A stretch of DNA of 40,555 nucleotides from Singulisphaera sp. GP187 (GTDB lineage: Bacteria > Planctomycetota > GCA-002687715). Below the pieces are notes generated by a model. The model was not told the origin of the DNA and made no database searches. It saw nothing but the letters and a program-made list of their open reading frames with translations. This document shows, piece by piece, positions 16,723 to 20,150 of this stretch. The first letter of the stretch is position 1; every line of letters starts with the position of its first letter. A program made the position numbers and the translations under genes. The stretch spans positions 1-40,555 of the forward strand of contig CAMDTN010000021.1 of the NCBI GenBank assembly GCA_945907755.1, read 5' to 3'.

Positions 16723-17460
16723 ATGCCCGAGCAAATCGAAGTGAAGCATGACTTCGAGAAGACGCCGCTGACCCGGCCCGAGTACATCGCCGCCCTCGTG
16801 CACCTTTACCGCGGCGAAATGCACCGCGCCCTTACTTGGCGGCAACGCCTGGACAACAGCACCAATTGGGCCATTGTCTCCACCGGCGCCTTGCTTTCGT
16901 TCTTGTTCACCAACACGCAGCACGAAACCCATGTGGTGGCCATCTTGGCCATCTTGCTGGCCTTCTTCATGCTCTGCTACGAAGCTCGGCGCTTTCGCTA
17001 CTTCGATGTGTGGCGCGCCCGCGTGCGCAAGCTGGAAGAAAACTTCTATGCACCGCTGCTGCGCCGCGACCTCACTTCGCCTATTGAAAACTGGGGCTTC
17101 CTTGTGGCCGAGGACCTAACCACACCGCGCTTCAAGATTTCGTACATCACCGCACTGCGCGCGCGCCTGATCCGCAACTACATTCCCATCTTTTTCGTGC
17201 TGTATGGCGCGTGGGTGACGAAGCTGATTCTGCATCCGCACCCGCTGGTGCCCAAAGACGAAAGCGGCCACGCCGCATCCTTCGGCACCATCTTCACGCA
17301 CCTGAATGTTGGGCCGATGCCCACTGCCCTCGTCTTGGCGCCCGCCGTGGCATTGGTGCTGTTTCTAATTTATGTGCTCGTGTTCGGACGCGCAGAGCGC
17401 ACGAAGGACGCCGAGTGGTGGTCCAACGACGCTGGCGATTCCGTCGACGAAATCTCGTAA
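16723..17460 (+). CDS. DUF2270 integral membrane protein
   Basis: 245 aa with four predicted membrane helices: about residues 50-66 (WAIVSTGALLSFLFTNT), 70-88 (HVVAILAILLAFFMLCYEA), 150-170 (NYIPIFFVLYGAWVTKLIL) and 205-225 (ALVLAPAVALVLFLIYVLVF). The soluble opening LVHLYRGEMHRALTWRQRLD and the post-helix RRFRYFDVWRARVRKLEENF are hallmarks of DUF2270. The family is conserved but of unknown function. It stands alone between tRNA-Ala and a convergent operon. Confidence 0.88.
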   Translation: MPEQIEVKHDFEKTPLTRPEYIAALVHLYRGEMHRALTWRQRLDNSTNWAIVSTGALLSFLFTNTQHETHVVAILAILLAFFMLCYEARRFRYFDVWRARVRKLEENFYAPLLRRDLTSPIENWGFLVAEDLTTPRFKISYITALRARLIRNYIPIFFVLYGAWVTKLILHPHPLVPKDESGHAASFGTIFTHLNVGPMPTALVLAPAVALVLFLIYVLVFGRAERTKDAEWWSNDAGDSVDEIS

Positions 17461-17480: not shown

Positions 17481-17837
17481 TCAATCGTTGGTCAGCGCTT
17501 CCTCCCATGCCGCGGCGTTGAAACCAACCAGCAAAGCGCCGCCAACTTTCAAAGTGGGCGCCCTGAGATTCCCCGAGGGGCCGCACAGCAGCGCAACCAA
17601 GTCTGCATCTGCTGGGCGTTCGCGGCCCTTCAGCGAAAAGTTGCTGGACTTGGCGCCACGAGAAACCACCAACTGGTTCATGCCATGCAGCGCCTTCAAC
17701 GCAGCAGGCCCCTCGAAGCGCGTGGTCTTTGCATCCACCACCAGACTGGCGGTGAGGCCGCGCTTCGCAAGGAAAGCGTCGGCCTTGGTGCAACTCACTC
17801 AACCCTTGCGGCGGTAATACCAAGCAGGTGTGGTCAT
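17481..17837 (-). CDS. ArsC/thioredoxin-like selenoprotein with in-frame UGA (Sec13)
   Basis: Read from the ATG at 17837, the protein is M-T-T-P-A-W-Y-Y-R-R-K-G, then UGA (17799-17801), then V-S-C-T-K-A-D-A-F-L-A, in total 118 aa including the UGA-coded residue. The UGA falls exactly at the first position of the C-x-x-C-like redox motif of the ArsC/Spx thioredoxin fold, giving U-V-S-C. The rest matches the family: about 90 more residues ending GPSGNLRAPTLKVGGALLVG and FNAAAWEEAL, where RAP precedes the cis-Pro strand. An AAGGA site (17846-17850) lies 8 nt before the ATG, and the ATG overlaps the stop of the upstream methyltransferase gene (ATGA), so translation clearly begins before the UGA. 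The alternative GTG start at 17798 would delete the first strand and the resolving residue. I recall homologues annotated as ArsC-family (seleno)proteins in planctomycetes, but this was not checked. It is probably a redox enzyme; arsenate reduction is not proven. Confidence 0.8.
17756..17784 (-). promoter_or_regulatory. Candidate bacterial SECIS hairpin after the UGA
   Basis: Beginning 14 nt after the UGA, the mRNA can form GGCCG (17784-17780), a bulged A, and CGCTT (17778-17774), closing on AAGCG (17765-17761) and CGGCC (17760-17756), with apical loop UCCUUGCG. That is 10 base pairs with one bulge, and the loop begins 25 nt from the UGA, within the range usual for SelB-binding hairpins. The common G in the first two loop positions is absent, so the fold is a candidate only. 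Confidence 0.5.
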
Positions 17838-18676
17838 GATGGAGTTCCTTCGCGGCATTGTGCCCGCAAAATCAAAGTGACATCGCCGCAGCCAGCAGGC
17901 AACGGAAGGGGCACTAATGGCCAACCATCGTCGCGCATGGCGCGGACTTCGATCAACGCGAAACCGCTGGCTGCCAGCATGGCCAGCAGCGTGTCGCGCT
18001 GGAACAGCAACAACTGGTACTCATCGGTACTTTGTTCCGGCACACCGGGCACGCCGTGCGCTAACAACAAGATGCGAATGATCTCGCGCCCCGTGGCAGC
18101 ATCGATACCTGCGCTTTCATAATGCACTGCGGCCACGCCACCGCCAGGAATGGGTGTCGGAGGCGTTTGCAGCAACACCTCCCCCGCTTCCAGTGGCACT
18201 CCAAGTTCCTGCACTGTGAGCCCAAGGAAATACAGCCCACCGGGTTCCAGCAACTGCTGCACGCGGCGCAGGTGTTGCTCCACCGCCGCAAAGTCCGGCA
18301 AGTGCGCCACGCTGCTGTACAGGTTCAGCGCGAGGTCGAAGGGCCCGCTGTGAAGCGGCAAGTCGCGCATGTCGGCCAGCACGATTTCGCTCTCATAGCG
18401 CCACAGCAGCTTCTGCGCCTCGTCCACCATGCCGGGCTGGATGTCTACACCCGCCACCGCAGATCCTTGCACCGCGAAAGGCAGCAGCCACTTGCCGGGC
18501 CCGCATGCGGGGTCCATCACTCTGCGCGGGGCGTGGCCCGAATGCTGCTGAGCCCACTCCTGCACGGCTGCCACCAAGGCCGTTTCAGGGTTCACCAACG
18601 TGGCGTAAATCAACGGGTATGAATAGATGCCCACGCGCCCCCATCGTGAGCAGCGCAGCGGCGCGACGCAAGCCAT
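17834..18676 (-). CDS. Class I SAM-dependent methyltransferase
   Basis: The core begins YSYPLIYATLVNPETALVAA, then VMDPACGPGKWLLPFA (SAM loop), VAGVDIQPGMVDEA (motif II), VLADMRDLPL and FDLALNLYSSVAHLP, typical of small-molecule methyltransferases of the type 11/25 kind. The C-terminal half (GGGVAAVHYESAGIDAATGR, then FQRDTLLAMLAASGF) is the usual substrate-side lobe. The start is unclear: ATG 18676, GTG 18634 or ATG 18724 are possible, and the frame stays open beyond them only as overlap with the divergent adaptor gene. Its stop TGA (17834-17836) overlaps the ATG of the selenoprotein gene, so the two are an operon; substrate unknown. Confidence 0.8.
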   Translation of the reverse strand: MACVAPLRCSRWGRVGIYSYPLIYATLVNPETALVAAVQEWAQQHSGHAPRRVMDPACGPGKWLLPFAVQGSAVAGVDIQPGMVDEAQKLLWRYESEIVLADMRDLPLHSGPFDLALNLYSSVAHLPDFAAVEQHLRRVQQLLEPGGLYFLGLTVQELGVPLEAGEVLLQTPPTPIPGGGVAAVHYESAGIDAATGREIIRILLLAHGVPGVPEQSTDEYQLLLFQRDTLLAMLAASGFALIEVRAMRDDGWPLVPLPLPAGCGDVTLILRAQCREGTPS

Positions 18677-18722
18677 GCGCAGCGCTGGAAGGCGCAAGTT
18701 GTGCCCGTAAGATTGCCCCGAC

Positions 18723-20150
18723 ATGAGCGGACCCAAAGATTCAGATTTCTCCTCTCTGCGCATCGAACGGGAGCCCGAAGCGGCCCCGAAGAAGCACGGT
18801 AAGCCGCGCCGCCAGGCACCCCGCATCGTCGGGCCCCTGGTCACCCTCGCCATCTTGGGCGTGGCGGCTTGGTTCGTGTGGCCCATGGTGGCCCCCAAAC
18901 TCGAAAGTTGGCGTGCACCAACAGTGGAAACATCCATCGTGGTGCGCACGCGTGCGGGTGGCGCAAACGAAATCACCATTGCGGCGGGCTATGTCGTGGC
19001 CCGCACCCGGGCTGCCTTGGCAGCGAAAGTCCCCGGCAAGCTGGTGGAACTGAATGTCGACAGCGGCTCGCTGGTGAATAAAGGCGATGTCATCGCGCGC
19101 ATCGACCCATCAGGTTTTGAAGCGCAGCGCGACCGCTCATTGGCAAGGCTGGAACAAATGAAGGCCGAAGTGGTGGCTGCCGAAGTGCGCGTTGGCATCA
19201 GCAAGAAAGCGGTGACGCGCGTAGATCGCTCTATCGAACAAGCCCAAGCCTCTGAACAAGAGTCACAGATTGACATCATCGAGGCCGAACGCGTGCTGGC
19301 CTTGGAGAACCGCCTGCAAGAACGCGGTGCTTCGACCGAAGACGCCGTGAAGCGCGCCGCATCGGCGTTGGCGCGGCTGCGCGCCACGCTGACGCGCCAA
19401 AAGGCTGGCATTCAAGCGCTGCTGGCAGAGCAAGATTCCACCAAGGCCGAAGTGAAAGGTGCCGAAGCCCGCGTTCAAGTGGCGGCGCAGCAAGTGCTGG
19501 AGGCCGAAGCCGGATTGCGCGCGGCCGCCACCGACCTTGCCGACTGCGCCATCCGCGCTCCGTTCAGCGGCATCGTGTTGCGCAAAGAAGCCGAAGTGGG
19601 CGAAATTGTGGTGCCCGCATTGGCCGGCGGCGGCAGCAGCCGCGGCGCGGTAGTGACCATGGCCGACACCGCTTCGCTGGAATTGGAAGTGGATGTGTTC
19701 GAGCGCGACATCGGCGAGATCAAAGACGGCGCGCCCTGTGTCATCACGCTGAACGCATGGACGGGCGTGAGCTTCGCCGCACATGTGCGCCAGAAGATGC
19801 CGACAGCGGATCGCACCAAAGGCACCGTGCAAGTGAAAGTGGCGTTCGATGTGCCCGATGCGCGCGTGATGCCAGAGCTGGGCGGCAAGGCCACTTTCTT
19901 GCGCCAACGCGAAGTTGTTGCTGCGCCGGCTGAAGTGCAAGTTCTTGCCAACGCCCTCACGGAGCGCGACGGACAACGCGGTGTGTTCGCATTAGAGCGC
20001 GGTCGTGTGCGCTTCGTGCCCCTTGAACTTGGCGAGCGCCGCAACGACCGCGTAGTGGTGCGCCGCGGCCTCGAAGGCGGCGAGTTAGTCATCGTGAACC
20101 CCGAACTGGCCCTCAGTGATGGGCTGTTGGTGCAGACCAAAGACCCGTGA
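18723..20150 (+). CDS. HlyD/MacA-type periplasmic adaptor of an ABC exporter
   Basis: 475 aa. The proline/lysine-rich cytoplasmic N-terminus is followed by one membrane helix (about residues 35-55, VGPLVTLAILGVAAWFVWPM). The lipoyl-like half (AALAAKVPGKLVELNVDSGS, then LVNKGDVIARID) and a long coiled-coil hairpin (residues about 135-270, rich in A/E/K/R) lead to the second half (DCAIRAPFSGIVLRKEAEVG) and a beta-barrel (LELEVDVFERDIGEIKDG). This is the membrane-fusion protein of a MacAB-like system, linking the ATPase and permeases encoded next to outer layers of the envelope. No outer-membrane TolC partner is in the window. Start codons of this gene and the divergent methyltransferase lie within 50 bp of each other. 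Confidence 0.88.
   Translation: MSGPKDSDFSSLRIEREPEAAPKKHGKPRRQAPRIVGPLVTLAILGVAAWFVWPMVAPKLESWRAPTVETSIVVRTRAGGANEITIAAGYVVARTRAALAAKVPGKLVELNVDSGSLVNKGDVIARIDPSGFEAQRDRSLARLEQMKAEVVAAEVRVGISKKAVTRVDRSIEQAQASEQESQIDIIEAERVLALENRLQERGASTEDAVKRAASALARLRATLTRQKAGIQALLAEQDSTKAEVKGAEARVQVAAQQVLEAEAGLRAAATDLADCAIRAPFSGIVLRKEAEVGEIVVPALAGGGSSRGAVVTMADTASLELEVDVFERDIGEIKDGAPCVITLNAWTGVSFAAHVRQKMPTADRTKGTVQVKVAFDVPDARVMPELGGKATFLRQREVVAAPAEVQVLANALTERDGQRGVFALERGRVRFVPLELGERRNDRVVVRRGLEGGELVIVNPELALSDGLLVQTKDP

Follow-up and report, generated by a model that had tools for sequence, protein, structure and literature searches.

The question raised by this locus is whether a UGA lying in frame near the 5' end of a small gene of Singulisphaera sp. 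GP187 terminates translation or is decoded as an amino acid; judging from the sequence and its homologues, it almost certainly encodes selenocysteine, and the gene product is almost certainly a small thioredoxin-fold redox protein with a predicted Sec13. In the window (the whole stretch of 40,555 nucleotides that was analysed) the full-length gene occupies positions 17481-17837 of the minus strand, where its frame opens with an ATG (17837-17835), contains one internal UGA (17801-17799, codon 13), closes with a second UGA as its stop (17483-17481) and comprises 118 residues. Mechanical ORF finding picks instead the GTG at 17798, immediately 3' of the internal UGA, and yields 105 amino acids, so that a standard ORF caller cuts the gene off at its active site. 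When the UGA is read through, the N-terminus becomes MTTPAWYYRRKGUVSC, as the original prediction had maintained, and the UGA (17799-17801, minus strand) falls, in the homologue alignment, on residue 13, the first of the U-x-x-C motif U13-V-S-C16.

The 5' end of the longer frame has the attributes that had been ascribed to it. A probable ribosome-binding site of its own, AAGGA (17846-17850, minus strand), can be read directly from the sequence 8 bases before the ATG, and this ATG overlaps, in an ATGA, the stop of the preceding ORF (17834-18979, minus strand), which encodes a SAM-dependent methyltransferase (PF13649, 3.2e-15). A methyltransferase ORF 57% identical to the latter is found also directly upstream of the homologue in a member of the same genus; it was not found beside more distant homologues within 1.5-kb flanks, and once close relatives and artefactual antisense frames were set aside, comparison of such flanks across the phylum revealed no shared neighbour. 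On the other side, the gene of a DUF2270 membrane protein (16723-17460, plus strand) is convergent with the selenoprotein gene, the two stops being ~20 bases apart; a TAT-signal GFO/IDH/MocA protein is also encoded among the window genes, a gene content that would fit Planctomycetota.

The read-through protein scores 109.7 bits with NCBIfam NF041106 (ArsC_rel_Se_1, "ArsC family (seleno)protein"), whose curated cut-off is 85; the match extends over residues 6-110, and the protein carries the residues that this family demands, Sec or Cys in the first and Cys in the fourth position of the motif. It falls short of the gathering score of PF03960 (ArsC; 17.1 vs 24 bits) and, by far, of the cut-off of TIGR01617 (Spx/MgsR; 19.2 vs 75.05 bits). 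In a PDB search with the family profile the nearest structures were Spx and uncharacterised ArsC-related proteins; a search of genome contigs with the single protein gave a distant ArsC relative as the sole match. The initial description of the gene as "ArsC/thioredoxin-like" thus stands as far as the fold relationship is concerned and does not extend to membership of the ArsC family proper.

To obtain homologues, the NF041106 cut-off was applied to 294 sampled genomes of the phylum and was exceeded by 64 matches, 54 with one in-frame UGA and 10 with none; 42 members were then read out in detail. At the aligned codon 13 these have UGA in 33 cases (32 besides the present gene), Cys in eight and Asp in one, so that 41 members have Cys or Sec as residue 13, and Cys16 is invariant. 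The search for Cys or UGA at this codon, proposed at the outset as a check, therefore found both. Asp is carried by L017 (G054:C12:140623-140940), a paralogue with D-A-T-C at the Sec position, in which the redox residue has seemingly been lost; the same genome also has a UGA form. One genome of the same genus (G001, ~90% complete) has selA and no NF041106 member was found in it, which reflects either loss or an assembly gap.

That the UGA is a genuine stop, and that the functional protein begins at GTG 17798 and does without the first strand, is what the 105-residue ORF returned by a standard ORF finder would suggest at face value, but this reading is very improbable. The WYYRRKG segment preceding the UGA is conserved among the homologues, W6, Y8 and R10 being nearly or wholly invariant in the members read out, and W-Y-Y-x-R is retained even in the Cys forms, which read straight through the site. 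Furthermore, between the present gene and its same-genus homologue three of codons 6-12 have changed, all synonymously, and a start at GTG 17798 would sit right after a codon that is Cys in others. Homologues starting after the UGA and devoid of WYYRRKG would have spoken for a stop; instead, the homologues begin 5' of it. In the AlphaFold model, finally, the first strand consists of residues 6-9, and it is this strand that the shorter frame loses, in keeping with the initial claim.

An error of sequencing or assembly, or a recent nonsense mutation turning TGC or TGT into TGA, could be entertained insofar as the non-Sec forms have at this site a Cys codon, one base away from UGA. Such an accident is, however, scarcely credible given that this gene contains one in-frame UGA in 53 further genomes and that in the 33 UGA members read in detail, 32 of them other than the present gene, it lies without exception at the identical codon; the argument that chance would hardly produce this was already part of the original prediction. 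Moreover, the UGA form tracks selA: selA is present in 52 of the 54 genomes having the UGA form and in two of the nine having only a non-UGA form (Fisher p = 2.2e-6, a guide rather than an exact probability since the genomes are interrelated). The two genomes with a UGA form and no selA match are G008 (77% complete) and G263 (91%). Taken together, the shared UGA codon, the co-occurrence with selA and the purely synonymous changes in codons 6-12 leave a stop, an assembly error and a chance mutation unable to explain the data.

Decoding as selenocysteine presupposes a dedicated machinery, and the search for selA, selB, selC and selD in the same genome, suggested in advance, recovered all four. 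The gene for tRNA-Sec (78.2 bits; anticodon UCA) lies ~70 bases from selA, whose match scores 498 bits; that of selB (325 bits) runs with its 3' end into a contig end and that of selD (242 bits) reaches contig ends, the gene being seemingly split across two of them (L042, G000:C26:33664-34227, and L043, G000:C71:4-357). The remaining selenoproteome was sampled by family searches. SelD has an in-frame UGA of its own (TGA) in GGGUASKIG, and four AhpC/TSA-family matches (G000:C6:36528-36905, C38:13369-13719, C22:4458-4811 and C28:3565-3867), with one in-frame TGA each, are probably further selenoproteins; selenocysteine is therefore evidently used in this genome. For FdhA there was only a below-cut-off match, without an in-frame UGA.

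These data bear also on the idea that the UGA is read as some other residue, through near-cognate readthrough or a changed code. The frame does stay open whichever residue is inserted, yet the gene's own terminator is UGA, which consequently also serves as a stop in this organism, the Sec machinery is complete, and the homologues that dispense with UGA have Cys at the site and not Trp or Gly; we accordingly hold this explanation to be most unlikely. The status of probable selenoprotein initially assigned to the gene is thus supported by the machinery, the family score, the conservation of the UGA and the co-occurrence with selA.

Insertion of selenocysteine would be aided by a signal downstream of the codon. 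RNA folding predicts a hairpin, probably a bSECIS, at 17755-17785 (minus strand), with its apical loop at 17767-17772; it spans 16-46 bases from the start of the UGA and has an MFE of -19 to -21 kcal/mol, with z = -3.4 relative to synonymous-codon controls of this gene. The published bSECIS rule calls for a loop of 3-9 nt, a stem of 4-16 bp, a distance of 16-37 nt from the UGA, an MFE of -7.5 kcal/mol or lower and a G within the first two bases of the apical loop, and a subset of selenoprotein genes departs from this model (PMC13188914). The loop of 6 nt, the upper stem of 6 bp, the spacing of 26 nt and the energy of the present hairpin lie within these ranges; the G is missing, the loop of the best fold being CCUUGC, and no G-bearing alternative was found within 3 kcal/mol.

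Within the family, a hairpin conforming to the rule, loop G included, is possible in 20 of the 33 Sec members, mostly with an AGUU-type loop; the other 13, among which is the present gene, have none, and several of them display a CUU-type loop. The mean hairpin z is -2.0 in the 33 Sec members and -1.4 in the nine non-Sec members, a difference that is not significant (Mann-Whitney p = 0.23). The absent loop G, this lack of a difference and the two UGA-form genomes with no selA match weigh against the selenocysteine reading. At one stem position, pairing among the Sec members reaches 0.742, against at most 0.702 in 200 synonymous controls. It is conceivable, though doubtful, that one family makes use of two kinds of hairpin, the AGUU type and the G-less CUU type of this gene; if this were true, the SelB of these bacteria would recognise a different class of SECIS, with a CUU-type loop. 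As a side observation, L028 (G028:C217:7830-8138), an ArsC/Spx-like gene that is distantly related and does not reach the NF041106 cut-off, likewise has a UGA, here within a UTSC motif; it may represent a second Sec lineage of the ArsC/Spx superfamily.

The AlphaFold model, built from 35 family members (pLDDT 95.3), places residue 13 between a strand (6-9) and a helix (14-25), which is the active-site place of the thioredoxin fold and agrees with the predicted location of the UGA at the first redox position. Foldseek retrieved the same proteins as the profile search (Spx, ArsC-related), its scores being modest (best E = 2.3e-3, TM ~0.5). As a whole, we conclude with high confidence that the gene specifies an NF041106 selenoprotein of the ArsC/Spx superfamily with a thioredoxin fold, in which UGA 13 would be decoded via SelB and Sec13 and Cys16 would perform redox chemistry. 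Sec-tRNA(UCA) would be delivered by SelB to codon 13 with the assistance of the downstream hairpin, a step for which the machinery genes, the hairpin and the conservation of the UGA speak. Both the fold and the U-x-x-C motif suggest that Sec13, situated at the N-terminal end of helix 1, would then attack the oxidised substrate and Cys16 would resolve the intermediate through a selenylsulfide.

As to the substrate, sequence considerations make a thiol/selenol disulfide reductase likelier than a true arsenate reductase, and the disulfide of a protein or small thiol, or some related oxidised species, a likelier substrate than arsenate, since the cut-off of the ArsC family was missed and the ORFs of the window that were scanned include no arsenic gene. 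We considered the name "arsenate reductase" and decided against it, ArsC denoting here a fold relationship only.

How does the protein compare with those already described? With the other NF041106 members it shares the UxxC motif, the position of the UGA and a full-length match above the cut-off; it differs from most of them in having R9 in place of H9, and from the 19 of 33 Sec members read out that have an AGUU-type loop in the CUU type of its hairpin. With Spx/MgsR (TIGR01617) and the YffB-type ArsC-related proteins it has in common the ArsC/Spx fold, the CxxC position and the "LRxP" and "VGF/Y" elements, Sec taking the place of their Cys. The fold and the position of the catalytic residue are likewise those of glutaredoxin-linked ArsC (PF03960) and of the UxxS selenoprotein forms, the latter having UxxS where the present protein has UxxC.

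The family is listed in reviews as "Arsenate reductase-like protein", UxxC (PMC9312934, PMC13188914), the second of which names NF041106, and the Global Ocean Sampling study (PMC2398784), which lists UxxS and UxxC types separately, contains an "Arsenate reductase 2" (cd03032, UxxC) that probably corresponds to this family or to a neighbouring one. Since a UxxC "arsenate reductase-like" family is thus already on record, the gene is a further member of the catalogued family NF041106 and a known kind of selenoprotein. Such a protein is ordinary for bacteria possessing a Sec system and leaves the understanding of selenoproteins unchanged; what this case contributes to the family is an intact Sec form and strong co-occurrence statistics linking the UGA form to selA.
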